6,028 nt of DNA. Source: an uncultured Shinella sp. (GTDB taxonomy: Bacteria > Pseudomonadota > Alphaproteobacteria > Rhizobiales > Rhizobiaceae). Where the stretch lies: contig CAMLOC010000250.1 in assembly GCA_946481465.1 (NCBI GenBank), positions 1 to 6,028 of the forward strand, read 5' to 3'. Both the position numbers and the translations under genes were made by a program. Numbering within the stretch: the first letter of the stretch is position 1; each line of letters begins with the position of its first letter. The notes beneath the pieces were generated by a model. The model was not told the DNA's origin, ran no database searches, and worked only from the letters and a program-made list of their open reading frames with translations. Shown one piece after another: positions 1-6,028 of the stretch.

Positions 1-1119
1 GGCGACCGCATTGCCCCTGCCGATGCCGCTCGCCGCAATCAGCCGGCCCCCGGCATCGAGATGGAAGAGGATGAAGGCGCCCTCGCCGAGGTCGCGCCGC
101 ACCGTCGCCGCCGCGCCGTCGGCAAGCCCGGCGATCTGCAGCGTCATGTCGTACTGGTCCGACCAGAACCACGGCACGGCGCAATGCGCCTCCTCCCCGC
201 CGAGCATATTGGCCGCCGCAAGCTGGCCCTGCTCCTGCGCATTGCGCCAGGATTCGAGCCGGACGCGCCGGTCGCCGTAGAGCGGCAGAGGATAGGACGT
301 GCAGTCGCCGGCCGCAAAAATATCCGGATCGGAGCTGCGCAGCAGGCCGTCGACGGCGATGCCGTTGTCCACGGCAAGCCCCGCCGCCTCCGCCAGTTCC
401 GTGTTGGGCACCGCGCCGATGCCGACGACCAGCAGGCTTGCCGCGACGACGCGGCCGTCCTCCAGCATGAGGCCCACCTCGCCCGGCCGCTCCTCGATGT
501 TCACGACCTTCGCGCCGCACAGCACTTCGACGCCCTCTTCCGCATGGCGGCCGGCGACGATGGCGGCGATCTCCGCCGGCACGCCGCGGCTGAGGACGCG
601 CGGCAGGCCCTCGACGAGCGTCACGCTCGCGCCCAGCTTGCGGGCGCTCGCCGCCAGTTCCAGGCCGATGAAGCCGCCGCCGAGAATGGCAATGTGGCTT
701 CCCTCCACGAGATGGGCGCGGATGCGCTGCGCATCGTCATGGCTGCGCAAGGCGGCGATGCGCCCGCCGCAGGCCGTTCCCGGCAGGGCGCGCGGGCGCG
801 CGCCGGTCGCCAGCAGCAATTTGTCATAGGGGAGCGCCGCGCCGTCGCCGAGCAGCACCCGCCGGCCGGCCCGGTCGATCGCAAGCACCGTGCGGCCGGG
901 CAACACCGCAATACCGGTAGCGGCATAGCGCTCGGCATCGGCGACGAGTTTCGGGCCGGCGCCGGCGACCAGCACCTCCTTGGAAAGCGGCGGACGCTCA
1001 TAGGGCAGGTGCGCTTCGCCGCCGATGAGGGTAATCGTGCCGTCGAAACCCTTTTCCCTCAGCGCGAAGGCTGCGCGCGCGCCGCATTCGCCGGCGCCGA
1101 CGATGACGAAATCCGCCAT
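1..1119 (-). CDS. mocF: Ferredoxin reductase, MocF-like (C-terminus outside window)
   Basis: This gene encodes an FAD-dependent NAD(P)H:ferredoxin reductase that would pass electrons to the adjacent Rieske ferredoxin. Reading on the minus strand from the ATG at 1119, 373 codons stay open to the window edge; the family is usually about 400-415 residues, so roughly 30-40 are missing. Visible in order: an FAD-binding GxGxxG (GAGECG, residues 8-13), YERPPLSK (40-47), LATGARPR (103-110), a second Rossmann glycine motif for NAD(P)H (GGGFIG, 147-152), the FAD-contacting FAAGDC (268-273), WRNAQEQG (291-298) and PWFWSDQYD (316-324). This set is characteristic of the BphA4/putidaredoxin-reductase class. 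The start is supported by GGGAGGA about 8 nt upstream. It lies 29 nt after mocE and is the third gene of the operon. In the rhizopine system the reductase role is assigned to MocF; the family call is secure, the substrate pathway is inferred from context. Confidence 0.85.
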   Translation of the reverse strand, partial: MADFVIVGAGECGARAAFALREKGFDGTITLIGGEAHLPYERPPLSKEVLVAGAGPKLVADAERYAATGIAVLPGRTVLAIDRAGRRVLLGDGAALPYDKLLLATGARPRALPGTACGGRIAALRSHDDAQRIRAHLVEGSHIAILGGGFIGLELAASARKLGASVTLVEGLPRVLSRGVPAEIAAIVAGRHAEEGVEVLCGAKVVNIEERPGEVGLMLEDGRVVAASLLVVGIGAVPNTELAEAAGLAVDNGIAVDGLLRSSDPDIFAAGDCTSYPLPLYGDRRVRLESWRNAQEQGQLAAANMLGGEEAHCAVPWFWSDQYDMTLQIAGLADGAAATVRRDLGEGAFILFHLDAGGRLIAASGIGRGNAVA

Positions 1120-1148
1120 GGCGTGATCCTCCCGAATATCGCGAAAAG

Positions 1149-1463
1149 CTAGAGCCCGATGAAGACCGTGCCGCCCTCGACCTTGACCGGATAGGTCCTG
1201 AGATCGACGCAAACGGGGGCGCCCTTGGCCTCGCCGGTCTTGTAGTCGAAGCGGCCGTTGTGCTTGGGACATTCGATGATGTGATCCATCACCAGCCCGT
1301 CGGCGAGGTGGATCTTCTCGTGGGTGCAGAGCCCGTCCGTCGCATGATAGGTGTCTTCCGGGCTGCGATAGATCGCAAAGGTGCGGCCCGCATGGTCGAA
1401 GCGGATGACATCCTCCTCGTCGATCTCGTCCGCTGCGCAGACTTCTACCCAGGTATCGCTCAT
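1149..1463 (-). CDS. mocE: Rieske [2Fe-2S] ferredoxin, MocE-like
   Basis: A 104-residue soluble Rieske-type ferredoxin expected to carry electrons from the downstream-encoded reductase to the membrane oxygenase encoded just before it. The cluster ligands are plain: C46-T-H48 (CTHEKIHLADG) and C65-P-K-H68 (CPKHNGRFDY), separated by 16 residues, in a protein the size of a stand-alone Rieske ferredoxin rather than an oxygenase alpha subunit. There is no signal peptide or membrane segment, so it should be cytoplasmic. The ATG at 1463 is preceded by GGAGG with 7 nt spacing. Gaps of 25 nt to mocD and 29 nt to mocF indicate one transcript. The name follows the D-E-F order of rhizobial rhizopine demethylation genes. 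A bare Rieske ferredoxin could serve other oxygenases, but here the partner is adjacent. Confidence 0.88.
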   Translation of the reverse strand: MSDTWVEVCAADEIDEEDVIRFDHAGRTFAIYRSPEDTYHATDGLCTHEKIHLADGLVMDHIIECPKHNGRFDYKTGEAKGAPVCVDLRTYPVKVEGGTVFIGL

Positions 1464-1488
1464 GGTCTCTCCTCCGGTGGCAGGCTGG

Positions 1489-2574
1489 TTATTCGGCGGC
1501 CGCGACGGCCGGCTCGCTGTGGAATTCTTCCCTGTAGGGCCGCGCCGTGGCGGGCAGGTCGCGCTTGAGGAAATAGTCCTCGTTGCGAAGCTGGCGCAGG
1601 AAGGCGGGGATCATCTCCCGGTAGCCGTGCCAGATGGACGGGTTCGGCGCCGGGAGGTCGTGCTTGATCATGGCGTGCAGCCGCGGCAGCGCGTGGTAGG
1701 GCACCATCGGGAACATGTGGTGCTCCACATGGTAGTTCATGTTCCAGTAGATGAAGCGGCTGACCGGGTTCATGTGGACGGTGCGGCTGTTCAGCCGGTG
1801 ATCGATGACATTGTCGGCAAGGCCGCCGTGCTGGAGCAGTCCCGTCAGGACGTGATGCCAGGCGCCGTAGAGCCGCGGCAGGCCGATGAGCATGGCCGGC
1901 AGGATCGAGCCGAGCGCCAAACAGAGAGCGGCAGTCGCAAGGTAGATGGCAAGCCAGATGCGGGCGATGCGGATCGCCTTCGGCTGTTCGGAGGCGGGGA
2001 TGAAGGTCTTTTCCGCCGCGCTCATCACGCCCGCCGCATTGCGCAGCATGTCGACGGCGGCGTGCCAGGCATCGAGCAGGCCGAAGAAGTTGAGCACGAG
2101 ACGGACGAGATCCGGCGGGCGCATGACGGCGATCTCCGGATCACGGCCGACGATGACCGTATCCGTGTGGTGGCGCGTGTGGCTCCAGCGCCAGGTCACC
2201 GGATTGCGCATGATCATGAAGCAGGCGATCTGGTAGACGGCGTCGTTCATCCACATCGTCTTGAAGGCCGTGCCGTGGCCGCATTCATGCCAGCGGCTGT
2301 CGGAGGCCGAGCCGTAGAGCACGCCGTAGACGAGGAAGAACGGCACCGCCCACCAGCTGCCCCACAGCCAGATGCCGGCAGCCCCGGTGACCAGCATGGC
2401 GCCGAGCCAGATCGCGGTGTCGCGGATCGCCGGCGCGTCGCTGCGCTGCATCAGCGCCTTCATGTCCTTGCGGGCGATTTCGGTGTGATACCATTCGGCC
2501 GCGGCCAGGCCGTTGGCCACGGCGGCCTCGGCATCGCGGCCAAGAAGGCTGTAGTCCCGCTTCGTCGGCTTCAT
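1489..2574 (-). CDS. mocD: Membrane di-iron desaturase/oxygenase, MocD-like
   Basis: A 361-residue integral membrane protein of the fatty acid desaturase/hydroxylase superfamily. The three histidine boxes that bind the two irons are present: HECGH (96-100), HTRHH (132-136) and HVEHH (282-286), with a further candidate ligand, H249. Hydrophobic stretches lie at about 54-90, 111-122 and 204-232. The start at 2574 is chosen because GGGAGGAG lies about 8 nt upstream and MKPTKRDYS looks like a natural N-terminus; the frame is open 36 codons further, to an ATG at 2682, but that segment lacks desaturase features. It is the first gene of a three-gene operon with its own ferredoxin and reductase. In Rhizobium leguminosarum, MocD with MocE/MocF is reported to demethylate the rhizopine 3-O-methyl-scyllo-inosamine. 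The fold is certain; the alternative is a desaturase or hydroxylase acting on a lipid or another small molecule. Confidence 0.85.
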   Translation of the reverse strand: MKPTKRDYSLLGRDAEAAVANGLAAAEWYHTEIARKDMKALMQRSDAPAIRDTAIWLGAMLVTGAAGIWLWGSWWAVPFFLVYGVLYGSASDSRWHECGHGTAFKTMWMNDAVYQIACFMIMRNPVTWRWSHTRHHTDTVIVGRDPEIAVMRPPDLVRLVLNFFGLLDAWHAAVDMLRNAAGVMSAAEKTFIPASEQPKAIRIARIWLAIYLATAALCLALGSILPAMLIGLPRLYGAWHHVLTGLLQHGGLADNVIDHRLNSRTVHMNPVSRFIYWNMNYHVEHHMFPMVPYHALPRLHAMIKHDLPAPNPSIWHGYREMIPAFLRQLRNEDYFLKRDLPATARPYREEFHSEPAVAAAE

Positions 2575-2736
2575 CCCTCGTCTCCTCCCTGTGGCGGCGC
2601 TTGCAGGCTCCGCCTCGTCTGATGCACGAACGATACCGCCCTTGCCTGCCTCTCTCAATCCTGCCATGATAGAATGCATCAAATCCCATCATTCACCATC
2701 ATACAGGCATGATGGAAAGATTTCACGGAGGGGGAC
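2575..2736. promoter_or_regulatory. Divergent promoter region between mocD and lacI-type gene
   Basis: These 162 bp separate the two divergently transcribed units and must hold both promoters. Near the middle are overlapping -10-like hexamers, TAGAAT at 2670-2675 on the plus strand and TATCAT (complement of 2666-2671) on the minus strand. Neither has a convincing -35 at normal spacing, so activator dependence or an unusual promoter is possible. The minus-strand Shine-Dalgarno (GGGAGGAG, complement of about 2583-2590) sets the mocD start. On the plus strand GGAGG at 2727-2731, 5 nt before ATG 2737, serves the regulator. Repeated half-sites cluster in the right half. Confidence 0.6.
2665..2715. 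promoter_or_regulatory. Clustered CCATCAT/ATGATGG operator-like half-sites
   Basis: CCATCAT occurs at 2686-2692 and again at 2696-2702, exactly 10 bp apart (one helical turn). The second copy forms a perfect 7-bp inverted repeat with ATGATGG at 2709-2715 across a 6-bp spacer. A related direct repeat, G-N-CATGAT-N-G, occurs at 2663-2672 and 2706-2715, 43 bp apart (about four turns). Such phased half-sites between a LacI-type gene and its divergent operon are plausible binding sites for that regulator, though the lack of a central CG differs from classical LacI-family operators. The repeats are seen directly; the regulatory role is inferred. Confidence 0.4.
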
Positions 2737-3768
2737 ATGGCATCGCGGCCCACCATTACGGATCTCGCGAAAGCCGCCGGCGTCAGCGTGGCGACGGTCG
2801 ACCGCGTGCTGAACGGGCGCCACAAGGTGCGCGAGGAGACGGCGCGGCGGGTCTACGACGCGGCCAATACGATCGGCTATCACGCGGTCGGGCTCATCCG
2901 GCAGCGGGTCTTCGAGGACCTGCCGCAATACCGGCTGGGCTTCAGCTTCCAGCGCCCGGGCCAGGCCTTCTACCAGAATTTCGCCCGCGAGATCGAAATC
3001 GCCTGCAATGCCTGCACCACCGCGCGTATCGTGCCGCAGATCGACTTCATCAACGCGCAGACGCCGGCCGCCATGACGGAGATGCTGCGGCAGCTTTCCG
3101 CCCGCAACCAGGCGCTCGCCGTCGTCGCACCCGATTATCCGGCAACGACCACCATGGTGGAAGACCTGAAGAGCCGGGGCATTCCGCTCTTCTGCCTGCT
3201 CTCCGACTTCGCCATGGACGTGCGCCAGGGCTATATCGGGCTCAACAACATGAAGGTCGGCCGCACGGCGGCCTGGATGATCGCCCGCGGCGCGCGGCGG
3301 CCCGGCAAGGTGGCGATCTTCGTCGGCAGCCACCGCTTCCACGGCCACGAACTGCGCGAGATGGGCTTCCGCTCCTTCTTCCGCGAGAAGGGGCGGGATT
3401 TCGAGGTGCTGGACACGCTCGTCAATCTCGACACCAGCGAGATCACCCACGAGGCGACCGCCAACCTGCTCGCCCAGCACCCCGACCTCGTCGGTCTCTA
3501 TGTCGCGGGCGGCGGCATGGAAGGCGCGATCTCCGCCATCCGCGAGGAGGGTTATGCCGGAAAGATCCAGCTCGTCGTCAACGAGCTGACGCCCGAATCC
3601 AAGGCCGGCCTTGCCGACGACGTCGTCACCATGGCGATCAGCACCCCCCTGCCCGCCCTCTGCCGCGAACTCGTCTCGCTGATGGTGACGGCCATCGAGA
3701 AGGGCGAGGCCGCCGTGCCGGGGCAGACCTTCCTGCCCTTCGACATCTTCCTTCCGGAGAATATCTGA
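2737..3768 (+). CDS. LacI-family transcriptional regulator
   Basis: A 343-residue regulator with the usual LacI layout and length. The N-terminal helix-turn-helix is at residues 6-27 (TITDLAKAAGVSVATVDRVLNG). The recognition helix has VDRVLN, with Asp22 where Ser is more common. A linker follows at about 45-64, then a periplasmic-binding-protein-like effector domain from about 66 to 343. The start is fixed by GGAGGGGG 5 nt before the ATG. It is transcribed away from mocDEF and sits upstream of the isomerase and binding-protein genes, so it probably senses the imported substrate or a derivative and controls one or both sides. Known rhizopine loci use MocR, of a different family (GntR-aminotransferase type). 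The effector is unknown. Codon use matches its neighbours, so there is no sign of recent separate acquisition. Confidence 0.88.
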   Translation: MASRPTITDLAKAAGVSVATVDRVLNGRHKVREETARRVYDAANTIGYHAVGLIRQRVFEDLPQYRLGFSFQRPGQAFYQNFAREIEIACNACTTARIVPQIDFINAQTPAAMTEMLRQLSARNQALAVVAPDYPATTTMVEDLKSRGIPLFCLLSDFAMDVRQGYIGLNNMKVGRTAAWMIARGARRPGKVAIFVGSHRFHGHELREMGFRSFFREKGRDFEVLDTLVNLDTSEITHEATANLLAQHPDLVGLYVAGGGMEGAISAIREEGYAGKIQLVVNELTPESKAGLADDVVTMAISTPLPALCRELVSLMVTAIEKGEAAVPGQTFLPFDIFLPENI

Positions 3769-3770
3769 CG

Positions 3771-3800
3771 GGCCGGATGATGGTTTTCCATCATCCGGCC
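3771..3800 (+). terminator. 13-bp perfect hairpin after regulator gene
   Basis: Starting two bases after the TGA stop at 3766-3768, GGCCGGATGATGG (3771-3783) and its exact complement (3788-3800) flank a TTTT loop. The stem is long and GC-rich and should end or stabilise the regulator transcript. No U-run follows (GATGAATCTG), so it is not a canonical intrinsic terminator. The inner arms ATGATGG and CCATCAT are the same heptamers found upstream of this gene, so an operator role is a real alternative. Confidence 0.5.
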
Positions 3801-3843
3801 GATGAATCTGTCAGCAATGAGGGTGCCGGCGGCGCCTTCGCCT

Positions 3844-3857
3844 TTGACGCCCGTCAA
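3844..3857. promoter_or_regulatory. Palindrome TTGACG-CC-CGTCAA upstream of isomerase gene
   Basis: This 14-bp inverted repeat has perfect 6-bp arms around CC and lies in the 162-bp gap between the regulator stop and the isomerase start at 3931. Its left arm doubles as a near-consensus -35 box (TTGACG); 17 bp downstream is GATCCT, a weak -10. The arrangement suits an operator over a promoter for the isomerase gene, but the -10 is poor and readthrough from the regulator gene is possible. The rest of the gap shows no coding signal; GGAGG at 3916-3920 is the isomerase ribosome binding site. Confidence 0.35.
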
Positions 3858-3930
3858 GCGCTTCCCGATCCTCATGCGTGCATGCGAGGCCGTCCTGTCG
3901 GCGGCCCCGAAGACCGGAGGACCCCATTCC

Positions 3931-4743
3931 ATGCCGCCCCTTGATTTCGCCCTCAACCACATGACGGCGCCCGCGCTGAACCTCGACGCCTTCTTCGCCC
4001 TCGCCGTCTCGCTCGGCATGACCAAGGTCGAGATCCGCAACGACCTTGACGGCAACGCCATCCTGGACGGCACCACGCCGGCCGAGGTGAAGGCACTCGC
4101 CGCGCGGCACGGCGTCACCATCATCTCGATCAACGCGCTCCAGCGTTTCAACGAATGGACGCCCGCCCGCGCCGCAGAAGCCAAGGACCTGATCGACTAT
4201 GCCGCCGCCGCCGGTGCCCTGGCGCTCGTGCTCGTGCCGAAGAACGACGGCACCGGCCAAGCCGATGGCGAGCGGCAGGCCAACCTTGCCGAGGCGCTCA
4301 CCGCCTTGAAGCCCATGCTGGAGGCCGCCGGAATCACCGGTCTCGTCGAACCGCTCGGCTTCGAGATCTGCTCGCTGCGCTCCAAGCGCGAGGCCGTCGA
4401 GGCGATCAAGGCGGTCGGCGGGGAACGGGTCTTCCGCCTCGTGCACGACACGTTCCACCATCACCTCGCCGGCGAGCCGGATCTCTTTGGAGAACTGACC
4501 GGCCTCGTCCACATTTCCGGCGTCGAGGATGCCGACGTCACCCTTTCCGCCATGCGCGACGGCCACCGCGTGCTGGTCGGCCCGAGCGACCGGCTCGGAA
4601 ACACCGGCCAGATCAAGGCCCTGGCCGCTGCCGGTTATGCCGGGCCGCTTTCCTTCGAGCCCTTCTCGCCTTCCGTGCACGGCGTCGCCGATCCGAGAGC
4701 GGCCGTGGCGCAGAGCGTCGCCTTCATTCGTGAAAACATCTAG
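3931..4743 (+). CDS. iolI: IolI-like keto-inositol isomerase, TIM barrel
   Basis: A 270-residue protein of the AP endonuclease 2/xylose isomerase-like TIM-barrel family. It most resembles Bacillus IolI, the 2-keto-myo-inositol isomerase, recalled by eye: VEIRN near residue 33, ISINALQRFN (65-74), and LVHDTFHHH (170-178) match IolI blocks, and length agrees. The four metal-ligand positions of IolI appear conserved as E140 (LVEP), D173 (HDTFHHH), H194 (VHIS) and E243 (SFEPF), so the enzyme should be active with a divalent metal. It would interconvert keto-inositols after nitrogen and methyl groups are removed from an inositol derivative. The ATG at 3931 is preferred because GGAGG lies 10 nt upstream and the homologous fold begins there; the frame is open to 3802 without family similarity. 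MocC is also a TIM-barrel protein but belongs with IolE (dehydratase); this protein looks closer to IolI. Confidence 0.75.
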   Translation: MPPLDFALNHMTAPALNLDAFFALAVSLGMTKVEIRNDLDGNAILDGTTPAEVKALAARHGVTIISINALQRFNEWTPARAAEAKDLIDYAAAAGALALVLVPKNDGTGQADGERQANLAEALTALKPMLEAAGITGLVEPLGFEICSLRSKREAVEAIKAVGGERVFRLVHDTFHHHLAGEPDLFGELTGLVHISGVEDADVTLSAMRDGHRVLVGPSDRLGNTGQIKALAAAGYAGPLSFEPFSPSVHGVADPRAAVAQSVAFIRENI

Positions 4744-4751
4744 GCCGGGCG

Positions 4752-4780
4752 GTGCCGGCGGCCCGTCCGCCGGCACTTTT
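4752..4780 (+). terminator. Rho-independent terminator after isomerase gene
   Basis: GTGCCGGCGG (4752-4761) pairs perfectly with CCGCCGGCAC (4767-4776) across a 5-nt loop, followed directly by TTTT (4777-4780). It sits 8 nt after the TAG stop at 4741-4743. The GC-rich 10-bp stem plus T-run is a good intrinsic terminator and implies that the downstream binding-protein gene uses its own promoter. Confidence 0.75.
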
Positions 4781-4810
4781 CCCCAAAAGGACCGCGGGAT
4801 TCCCGGCCGT

Positions 4811-4850
4811 GAAAATGGAACGGGCTTGACGTCCCGGACAGAAAATGGAA
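4811..4850 (+). repeat. Direct repeat GAAAATGGAA, 30 bp apart
   Basis: GAAAATGGAA occurs at 4811-4820 and again at 4841-4850, a spacing of 30 bp (close to three helical turns). The copies bracket the -35 box at 4826-4831, and the second runs into the IolR-like box. Same-face spacing around a promoter suggests protein binding, but two copies in AT-richer promoter DNA are modest evidence. Confidence 0.45.
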
Positions 4851-4854
4851 TAAA
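4826..4854 (+). promoter_or_regulatory. Sigma70-type promoter for binding-protein gene
   Basis: TTGACG at 4826-4831 matches the -35 consensus at 5 of 6 positions and is preceded by C, giving the CTTGAC common in rhizobial promoters. After exactly 17 bp, AATAAA (4849-4854) matches the -10 at 4 of 6. It follows the terminator of the previous gene and leaves a 5' leader of about 140 nt before ATG 5001. The -10 lies inside the GGAA-N6-TTCC box, so repressor binding would block it. Confidence 0.55.
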
Positions 4855-4860
4855 CATTCC
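4847..4860. promoter_or_regulatory. IolR-like operator GGAA-N6-TTCC
   Basis: GGAA (4847-4850), six bases, TTCC (4857-4860): an exact match to the palindromic motif described for the RpiR-type repressor IolR upstream of inositol catabolism genes in Sinorhizobium and relatives. It overlaps the proposed -10 box of the binding-protein gene. A motif with eight fixed bases can occur by chance, but its position in the promoter of a gene for an inositol-type receptor makes function likely. iolR itself is not in the window. Confidence 0.6.
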
Positions 4861-4889
4861 GTGATACGGAATTCGCGGTTTGTTTATTC
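4848..4889. repeat. Nested inverted repeats in binding-protein promoter
   Basis: GAATAAACA (4848-4856) and its exact complement TGTTTATTC (4881-4889) form a 9-bp inverted repeat centred near 4868. Inside it, ATTCCGT (4856-4862) and ACGGAAT (4866-4872) form a 7-bp inverted repeat around GAT. Both share bases with the IolR-like box. They could be further operators, for the nearby LacI-type regulator or a second IolR dimer, placed at or just after the transcription start. They may instead fold in the leader RNA. The repeats are certain; the role is open. Confidence 0.5.
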
Positions 4890-4904
4890 TGTTTTGGCCC
4901 TTTG

Positions 4905-4982
4905 CCTCCCGGGAGGAGCAAGGGGCCGGCTGCCCGCAAGGGCCAGCTTTCCGGATAATCGGGTGGCGCTGCCGGACGCCAC
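4905..4982 (+). other. Structured 5' leader of binding-protein gene
   Basis: CCTCCCGGGAGG at 4905-4916 is a perfect 12-bp palindrome. GTGGCG (4963-4968) pairs with CGCCAC (4977-4982) across 8 nt, ending just before the Shine-Dalgarno AGGAGG at 4987-4992, which lies 8 nt from the ATG. GATAAT at 4954-4959 resembles a -10 but lacks a good -35. GGGAGGAG at 4911-4918 resembles a ribosome binding site but has no start codon behind it. I see no recognised riboswitch and no small gene. Confidence 0.35.
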
Positions 4983-5000
4983 GTTGAGGAGGAGAACGAC

Positions 5001-5930
5001 ATGAAAAAATTCATTATGAGCTCGGCGCTTGCCGTGATGATGTCCACCGCCGCCCATGCCGAGACGATCGGCGTGTCGATGGCGCTGTTCGACGACAACT
5101 TCCTGACCGTCCTGCGCAACGGCATGTCCGACTACGCCAAGACGCTCGACGGTGTGGAACTGCAGATCGAGGACGCCCAGAACGACGTGGCCAAGCAGCA
5201 GAGCCAGGTGCAGAACTTCATCGCCTCGGGCGTCAGCGCCATCATCGTGAACCCGGTCGACACCGACGCCACCGCCGCGCTTTCCAAGGCCGCCGCCGAT
5301 GCCGGCATTCCACTGGTCTACGTCAACCGCGAGCCGGTCAACGTCAACGAACTGCCGGAAAAGCAGGCCTTCGTCGCCTCCAACGAGCAGGAATCCGGCA
5401 CGCTGGAAACCAAGGAAGTCTGCCGCCTCCTGAACGGCAAGGGCAAGGTCGTCGTCATGATGGGCGAACTGTCCAACCAGGCCGCGCGCATGCGCACCCA
5501 GGACATCAAGGACGTCATCGCCACCGACGAGTGCAAGGGCCTCGAGATCGTCGAGGAACAGACCGCCAACTGGTCGCGCACGCAGGGCTCCGACCTCATG
5601 ACCAACTGGCTCTCCGCGGGTCTGGAATTCGACGCCGTCATCTCCAACAATGACGAAATGGCGATCGGCGCCATCCAGGCGCTGAAGGCCGCCGGCCGCT
5701 CGATGGACAGCGTCGTCGTCGCCGGCATCGACGCCACGCAGGACGCGCTCGCCGCCATGGCGGCCGGCGATCTCGACGTGACGGTGTTCCAGGACGCCGC
5801 CGGCCAGGGCAAGGGCTCGGTCGACGCCGCGCTGAAGCTGGCCAAGGGCGAGAAGGTCGACACCAAGGTGTACATCCCCTTCCAGCTCGTGACCCCGGCC
5901 AACATCGCCGATTTCCAGGCGAAGAACTGA
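5001..5930 (+). CDS. mocB: Periplasmic sugar/rhizopine-binding protein, MocB-like
   Basis: A 309-residue substrate-binding protein of a CUT2-type (ribose/inositol class) ABC importer, delivering its ligand in the periplasm to a membrane permease not in the window. Residues 1-20 are a Sec signal peptide with cleavage after AHA. The mature protein follows the two-lobe type I fold: DDNFLTVLRNGM (31-42), NPVDTDA (84-90), YVNREP (107-112), SNQAARMRT (158-166), SNNDEMAIGA (215-224), GIDATQDAL (242-250) and VFQDA (262-266). By analogy with ribose-binding protein, N109/R110, R163, N217, D244 and Q264 are the likely hydroxyl-binding residues. C141 and C178 could form a disulfide. AGGAGG lies 8 nt before the ATG. 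It has its own promoter with an IolR-like box. Size and sequence resemble rhizobial MocB; a myo-inositol or other polyol ligand is the main alternative. Confidence 0.8.
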   Translation: MKKFIMSSALAVMMSTAAHAETIGVSMALFDDNFLTVLRNGMSDYAKTLDGVELQIEDAQNDVAKQQSQVQNFIASGVSAIIVNPVDTDATAALSKAAADAGIPLVYVNREPVNVNELPEKQAFVASNEQESGTLETKEVCRLLNGKGKVVVMMGELSNQAARMRTQDIKDVIATDECKGLEIVEEQTANWSRTQGSDLMTNWLSAGLEFDAVISNNDEMAIGAIQALKAAGRSMDSVVVAGIDATQDALAAMAAGDLDVTVFQDAAGQGKGSVDAALKLAKGEKVDTKVYIPFQLVTPANIADFQAKN

Positions 5931-5946
5931 ACCGGCTCTCGCCGGT
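5931..5946 (+). other. Short stem-loop abutting stop codon
   Basis: ACCGGC (5931-5936), TCTC loop, GCCGGT (5941-5946): a perfect 6-bp GC-rich stem beginning immediately after the TGA at 5928-5930. No T-run follows, so it is more likely a 3'-end stabiliser than a terminator. Confidence 0.4.
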
Positions 5947-5970
5947 CGCCAAAATCCGCTAGACTGCTGT

Positions 5971-6000
5971 GGACGCGCGCACGCAAGCGTGCGCGCGTCC
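5971..6000 (+). other. 12-bp GC-rich stem-loop after binding-protein gene
   Basis: GGACGCGCGCAC (5971-5982) pairs perfectly with GTGCGCGCGTCC (5989-6000) around GCAAGC. The weak GACCCGTTTC that follows is not a convincing U-run. Such hairpins between a binding-protein gene and its transporter genes commonly cause partial termination or protect the upstream mRNA, giving excess binding protein over membrane components. That role is inferred, since the downstream genes lie outside the window. Confidence 0.5.
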
Positions 6001-6020
6001 GACCCGTTTCTGGTTGCTCC

Positions 6021-6026
6021 GGGAGG
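6021..6026 (+). promoter_or_regulatory. Shine-Dalgarno of a gene just past the right edge
   Basis: GGGAGG at 6021-6026, two bases before the end of the window, has no start codon within the window but is a strong ribosome binding site. A plus-strand gene is expected to begin within about 10 nt beyond. By operon habit it would be the ABC transporter ATPase or permease for the upstream binding protein. Confidence 0.45.
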
Positions 6027-6028
6027 GA

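Follow-up and report, generated by a model that had tools for sequence, protein, structure and literature searches.

Genes of the mocDEF type in rhizobia have been read as 'rhizopine' genes (PMC3538637, PMC5789663), though rhizopines are described as rare and absent from most rhizospheres (PMC6668481). Which substrate, then, does such an operon serve in an uncultured Shinella sp.? The operon in question lies on a stretch of 6,028 nt (contig CAMLOC010000250.1, positions 1 to 6,028; hereafter the window), which carries six genes, three on the minus strand (mocF, mocE and mocD) and three on the plus strand, encoding a FixV-type regulator, a triose-phosphate isomerase (TIM) barrel protein and a periplasmic sugar-binding protein (SBP). 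By sequence, the operon belongs to a type already known, the MocDEF oxygenase systems. We propose that the locus is probably a FixV-controlled set for the uptake and O-demethylation of O-methylated inositols of the pinitol/ononitol type, and that a common plant O-methyl-inositol (pinitol, ononitol) is a more likely natural substrate than a rhizopine.

The sequence-only reading of this DNA had rightly recognised the type of the operon. It had described a histidine-box desaturase-like protein, a stand-alone Rieske ferredoxin and a BphA4-type reductase, and matches to PF00487, TIGR02377 and Pyr_redox_2/Reductase_C bear this out; a MocE-family ferredoxin, a His-box FA_desaturase-family oxygenase and a BphA4-type reductase thus stand together in one operon. 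The tight spacing that it had noted was likewise confirmed, with gaps of 25 nt (1464-1488) and 29 nt (1120-1148), and a GGAGG-like sequence lies ahead of every mocDEF start. The module had also been called complete, which it is not. The window edge at base 1 removes the C-terminus of the reductase, leaving 373 amino acids against 407 in locus L001 (Shinella sp. SUS2), and a PanB-like gene, present after mocF at 56 of the 74 related loci that could be assessed, falls beyond the window. The closest relatives of the window are from Shinella; its MocD is 96% identical to that of L001. Across nine homologues 31-80% identical to the window MocD, H96, H100, H132, H135, H136, H282, H285 and H286 are invariant, as is H249.

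Features of the window. Coordinates are positions in the 6,028-nt stretch; bracketed tokens stand for the predicted operator sequences.
Feature	Position	Strand	Evidence
MocF-like ferredoxin reductase, BphA4 type	1..1119	(-)	PF07992 5e-72, PF14759 2.5e-15 (Pyr_redox_2 + Reductase_C)
MocE-family Rieske [2Fe-2S] ferredoxin	1149..1463	(-)	TIGR02377 179.8 bits against cut-off 136.15; CTH-x16-CPKH motif
MocD-like membrane di-iron oxygenase	1489..2574	(-)	FA_desaturase PF00487 2.7e-36; conserved histidines; tree
Predicted mocD promoter	2630..2658	(-)	TTGAGA 2653-2658, 17-nt spacer, TATCGT 2630-2635
Predicted FixV operator of mocD, TGATAGAATGCATCA	2667..2681	.	11/12 pattern positions; just upstream of -35 box
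FixV-type LacI/GalR regulator, divergent from mocD	2737..3768	(+)	PF00356 + PF13407
Predicted FixV operator of TIM/transport operon, TGATGGTTTTCCATCA	3778..3793	.	12/12; within perfect inverted repeat 3771-3800
Xylose-isomerase-like TIM barrel (Msi119-type sugar epimerase/isomerase)	3931..4743	(+)	PF01261 9.3e-31; PDB relatives 4hgx, 2q02, IolI 1i60
CUT2 periplasmic sugar/cyclitol-binding protein (SBP), MocB-like	5001..5930	(+)	PF13407 2.6e-60

The neighbourhood of mocDEF was compared in the best 80 of at least 568 related stretches, where a locus with enough flank was counted as assessable; the 80 were selected for MocD and are kin to each other, and their counts describe a family rather than independent events. 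E follows D in 79/79 and F in 78/78 assessable loci, a D-E-F set far beyond chance, although the loci were picked for having D. Besides the PanB-like gene, purU lies downstream in 12 of 72. On the other side of D, a divergent FixV-like gene is present in 78/78 and a TIM barrel in 48/74, and the gene order among the loci runs SBP-TIM-FixV on one side and D-E-F-PanB on the other. The L001 counterpart of the window's plus-strand operon extends further, to genes for an ATP-binding cassette (ABC) ATPase and a permease. An iolG gene occurs in 20 of the 80 loci, including L001-L005, and iolC in one; the two iolG products scanned, from L002 and L004, scored 427.5 and 427.9 against the inositol 2-dehydrogenase cut-off of 355 (TIGR04380).

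The route that we infer would begin with import of the cyclitol by the CUT2 ABC transporter. Electrons would pass from NADH through MocF and MocE to MocD, whose membrane di-iron centre would hydroxylate the O-methyl carbon, and the resulting hemiacetal would collapse to inositol and formaldehyde. The PanB-like protein, with PurU in some genomes, would handle the one-carbon unit via folate, while the inositol would be consumed by the TIM-barrel isomerase together with IolG and the iol pathway. FixV would act as a ligand-dependent activator at palindromic operators 5′ of mocD and 3′ of fixV.

More distant loci point in the same direction. A Marivivens locus (L101) has LacI on one side and D-E-PanB-LacI-TIM-SBP-permease-ATPase-iolG-iolC on the other; Burkholderia cenocepacia has iolG-TIM-xylose isomerase-LacI next to D-E-F, and Acidiphilium has D-E-F-TIM with three Gfo/Idh/MocA genes. 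In genome G120 (L162) an operon contains, in this order, Gfo/Idh, TIM, MocE, TIM, PanB-like, Gfo/Idh, another Gfo/Idh-like gene and PurU, followed by an iolC-like gene (like the annotated Marivivens iolC), an IolD-type thiamine pyrophosphate enzyme and an IolB-family gene. The inositol link is repeated in distant relatives. In the G120 operon no MocD was recognised beside the MocE-type ferredoxin, the PanB-like protein and PurU.

Published expression data can be read in a similar way. In R. mesoamericanum, mocDEF homologues whose products share 59.7-79.3% identity with those of L5-30 and R. leguminosarum are reported to be induced, together with inositol genes, by Mimosa root exudate, in which pinitol was the most concentrated component (145 uM) (PMC5789663). 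The authors read this induction as rhizopine catabolism (PMC5789663); we prefer the pinitol reading. Searches for pinitol with rhizobia or bacteria, and for mocE with desaturase, returned no publication whose title concerned O-methyl-inositol demethylation by mocDEF.

Several observations weigh against an O-methyl-inositol substrate. None of iolA, iolB, iolD and iolE was found in the 80 loci; iolE and iolD, the two of iolA-E searched for there, do exceed their cut-offs elsewhere in genomes G001-G003, including Shinella sp. SUS2. A related SBP adjoins the cluster in only 20 of 71 assessable loci, and the window SBP is 80% identical to the MocB of a rhizopine cluster (L081), so amino-inositols stay among the possible substrates. 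Gluconate and fructose also exceed 100 uM in the Mimosa exudate (PMC5789663), and the induced R. mesoamericanum genes need not be of the FixV type. Finally, in a sample of 289 genomes of the class, 49 of which hold a MocD homologue at 1e-40, an iol marker was found in only 2 of 18 MocD regions (L138-L155), and our confidence was slightly lowered because of this last count.

The alternative that survives best is a genuine catabolic cluster for rhizopine (3-O-methyl-scyllo-inosamine or scyllo-inosamine) with a swapped regulator, which we regard as unlikely. For comparison, we used the cluster of S. meliloti RCAM1115 (L081), in which a MocR of 756.5 (rhizopine_MocR cut-off 650) accompanies MocB, MocA and mocDEF-panB-purU, and four of 14 plasmid records whose MocR is at least 80% identical to that of L081: S. 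meliloti T073, Phyllobacterium zundukense, R. lentis and R. leguminosarum (L085-L088), all of the same type with an intact mocD. The mocD match of L081 (10547-11616) is itself split over two frames and apparently broken; it is intact in strain T073 (L085). The window MocD is 78-85% identical to the MocDs of the four intact clusters and the window SBP 79-81% identical to the SBPs of MocR-controlled clusters, and both kinds of locus share the panB-purU tail. These likenesses favour the rhizopine alternative, and the 'rhizopine-demethylase type' of the sequence-only reading stands as far as the MocDEF assignment goes. The rhizopine substrate that it implied found no support: the regulator is FixV/LacI and not MocR, the threshold used revealed neither mocA nor mocR in the vicinity of L001-L005, where iolG was found, and a MocR search at 1e-150 had no match in Shinella sp. 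SUS2. A biosensor based on MocR responded to scyllo-inosamine and 3-O-methyl-scyllo-inosamine in a panel that included myo-inositol, ononitol and pinitol (PMC6668481).

The relationships among the MocDs do not settle the matter. An 88-row tree was built from rows picked from 146 MocD sequences plus two DesA-like proteins (quick search only; root unused, with very long branches), and a 49-row MocD tree from the same set minus 18 distant and 21 close rows. The smaller tree puts the window MocD in a clade with those of Shinella (100/97) and distributes the four rhizopine MocDs over three places among the FixV-type MocDs, with 3 label changes. The two types interleave, and therefore the MocD sequence cannot tell the substrate, which is a point in favour of the rhizopine alternative. 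A single clade of the four rhizopine MocDs appeared in 0% of 200 bootstrap trees, and in the approximately unbiased (AU) test it was not rejected (p = 0.146); one origin and several are both compatible with these sequences.

The distribution of the two cluster types argues against a rhizopine role. We sampled 150 genomes of the order to which Shinella sp. SUS2 belongs, SUS2 included, scoring only the best candidates per genome. MocD (E <= 1e-100) was found in 23 genomes at 28 places, and FixV (1e-80) in 12 genomes at one place each, 9 of them divergent from MocD and within 350 bp of it (counted by eye). The PanB-like protein (1e-40) occupied 22 places in 14 genomes and lay at most 2 kb downstream at 12 of the 28 MocD places (also counted by eye). 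A rhizopine-type MocR query (L086, 1e-150) matched 4 of the 150 genomes with a best identity of 61%, compared with the 86-93% that non-identical rhizopine MocRs share with the MocR of L081; we therefore counted no close rhizopine MocR in the 150. Moreover, S. meliloti RCAM1115 holds both cluster types, with its FixV-type mocDEF on a separate replicon from the MocR-type one. Overall, an O-methyl-inositol role appears better supported for this locus than the rhizopine label.

Two side observations concern the rhizopine cluster of L081. Genes for gluconate dehydrogenase subunit 3, a GMC oxidoreductase and cytochrome c (L081:3606-6650) adjoin the moc genes and may encode MosDEF, the ononitol dehydrogenase that takes part in making rhizopine. 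In addition, the MocB beside a true MocR (L081:13375-14304) fails the NCBIfam model for rhizopine binding protein, NF052284, scoring 45.4 where 420 is needed. Possibly the model represents another protein, and because this MocB fails too, we dropped it as a test for the window SBP.

A further alternative, which we regard as rather improbable, has MocDEF act by demethylation or hydroxylation on a different substrate, such as another small O-methyl sugar, and leaves the inositol genes as bystanders. The scarcity of iol markers in the class sample favours such a role, as do distant MocDs with a GH4 enzyme or an SMP-30 lactonase in their vicinity (L166, L148). These belong to a small AT-rich genome (G164, ~30% GC), where several MocD homologues, and PanB-like genes too, have such neighbours, a context that suggests O-methyl sugar use. 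Against it, the inositol context recurs among close relatives, in Rhizobiales (iolG at a quarter of the 80 loci), one Marivivens and one Burkholderia.

A lipid or fatty-acid desaturase is very improbable: MocD shares PF00487 membership and the common His boxes with such enzymes, but it scores 25.3 against the DesB equivalog cut-off of 500, very long branches part it from the DesA-like proteins (L099, L100) in the 88-row tree, and it comes with a dedicated Rieske ferredoxin and reductase and with a regulator and transporter of sugar type. The best match of L100 is DesA, at 366 bits and under the DesA cut-off of 500. A PDB sequence search with MocD gave no match at E <= 1, and a profile of the nine MocD homologues found only an alkane monooxygenase, a marginal match (E 0.042).

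How would FixV control the set for O-methyl-inositol use? Between fixV and mocD, 79 of 80 intergenic regions (the window and those of 79 loci) match TGATRG-N3-CYATCA at 10 or more of its 12 positions, compared with about 2% of shuffled sequences; these regions also served to fit the pattern, and shuffling takes no account of kinship. In 55 of the 80 regions, the best match ends 8 nt ahead of a TTGA-type promoter, a predicted placement that fits activation by FixV. The first pattern, with its 3-nt spacer, missed most sites 3′ of fixV, and a 4-nt spacer was added after those sequences had been read; in this form, a palindrome lies directly 3′ of fixV at 10 of 12 positions or better in 50 of 80 regions, 28 of them perfect, against 1.3% of shuffles. 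The remaining 30 regions lack it, which weighs against the proposed FixV-controlled set. Operator-like matches inside genes, at 1277-1291 in mocE (11/12) and 1694-1709 in mocD (10/12), were taken as chance.

A similar element was found ahead of nifA in Mesorhizobium. Nine of 10 Mesorhizobium genomes have a second FixV copy, 57-62% identical to the window FixV and 59-65% to the search query, and a site with a 4-nt spacer comes right after fixV in 8 of the 9 second copies, in three sequence types. In three genomes (L202-L204), whose FixV is 59-60% identical to that of the window, the palindrome TGATAAAATACTATCA, which resembles the predicted operators of the window, stands between fixV and nifA, at nt 6-21 after the fixV stop. 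The protein after fixV in L204 scored 736.7 against the NifA cut-off of 528.85, and those of L202 and L203 were named NifA by N-terminal letters like those of L204. A TIM-barrel remnant between fixV and nifA was detected in L204 only. In strain R7A, FixV is reported to be required for nifA2 expression, with an inositol derivative proposed as the inducer, and from the same report the second FixV copies are inferred to lie on symbiosis islands (PMC3538637). In the literature searched, fixV together with nifA2 is confined to that paper.

The gene after mocF in Shinella (L001:12722-13516) encodes a divergent PanB paralogue. It matches PF02548, yet scores 108.7 against the PanB cut-off of 207.55, and a true PanB of more than 300 bits is additionally present in 3 of 3 genomes. 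We aligned 72 rows, or 69 distinct loci (L092-L094 repeat L001, L002 and L015). The column of E. coli D84 holds G and that of E114 holds A or S in all 72 rows, the D45 column is changed in 71 and kept in one, and the E181 column is E throughout. In the E. coli enzyme these four residues are the Mg2+ ligands and the base; the D84, E114 and E181 columns are consistent with the alignment to 1m3u. The PanB-like protein thus appears, from its sequence, to have lost the divalent-metal ligands.

At a threshold of at least 140 bits, the class sample holds 19 PanB-like places. Seven are within 2 kb of a MocD homologue, one is in the iol-type operon of G120, four adjoin PhyH dioxygenases (two as a tandem pair; three PhyH proteins scanned; L160, L161 and L163), one lies ~0.4 kb after a Rieske oxygenase (L158) and one is at a contig end. 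At the other five no oxygenase was noticed alongside (judged by eye), which weighs against the main reading. Because the protein is associated with several oxygenase classes and with PurU, its distribution suggests a role with released formaldehyde. E. coli ketopantoate hydroxymethyltransferase is reported to be able to take formaldehyde directly, though together with a divalent metal (PMC7610986).

We tentatively combine these observations in one broader proposal, which as a whole is possible but doubtful. FixV-type regulators may sense plant O-methyl-inositols (pinitol, ononitol or products of these) and switch on mocDEF-panB in free-living Rhizobiales; in Mesorhizobium, a sensor and a palindrome of the FixV kind may have taken up a place ahead of nifA2, turning a host cyclitol into a nitrogen-fixation signal; and the PanB-like protein may be a metal-free PanB member for the formaldehyde of oxidative demethylases (MocD, and perhaps the Rieske and PhyH types). 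One published result may tell against this proposal: in R7A, 536 bp upstream of nifA2 are reported to suffice for a Fix+ phenotype within an intergenic region of 558 bp (PMC3538637). Because the palindrome of the three Mesorhizobium relatives sits at nt 6-21, it may fall just outside this minimal fragment.

Should FixV-type mocDEF encode O-methyl-inositol demethylases, the 'rhizopine' label would be misleading, and the genes would reveal a route by which cyclitols widespread in legumes are used. Pinitol is reported to cross the Lotus symbiosome membrane, and transporter-reduced RNA interference lines fix less nitrogen, an effect read as osmotic (PMC8730688). The FixV ligand was left open in 2013 (PMC3538637); with a palindrome in common and a candidate class of ligands named, what FixV senses can be tested directly. 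If the PanB-like role is true, a partner that recurs beside oxygenases would represent an unrecognised way of handling formaldehyde.

Compared with known systems, the PanB-like protein resembles ketopantoate hydroxymethyltransferase (PanB) in its PF02548 family membership and its kept E181 column, and differs in falling under the equivalog cut-off and in its changed Mg2+-ligand residues. The mocDEF genes of rhizopine catabolic clusters in R. leguminosarum 1a and S. meliloti L5-30 are said to have been described by Bahar et al. 1998. Such clusters have the same three enzymes in the same order with the same panB-like and purU tail, whereas the window has FixV/LacI in place of MocR and a TIM barrel and (in relatives) iolG in place of mocA, and the FixV-type arrangement is present in many genera. 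That arrangement, fixV-mocDEF-msi119, is in print for S. meliloti, NGR234, R. etli and R. leguminosarum (PMC3538637), and the window conforms to it: a FixV homologue divergent from mocDEF with an Msi119-type TIM barrel downstream, the link to Msi119 being taken from that paper. Unlike us, its authors treat mocDEF as rhizopine genes, and its main text makes no mention of an operator, palindrome, inverted repeat, panB, purU or pinitol. To this published arrangement, our sequence comparison would add a fourth gene of PanB-like type, a shared palindrome and a definite candidate for the class of ligand that FixV senses.

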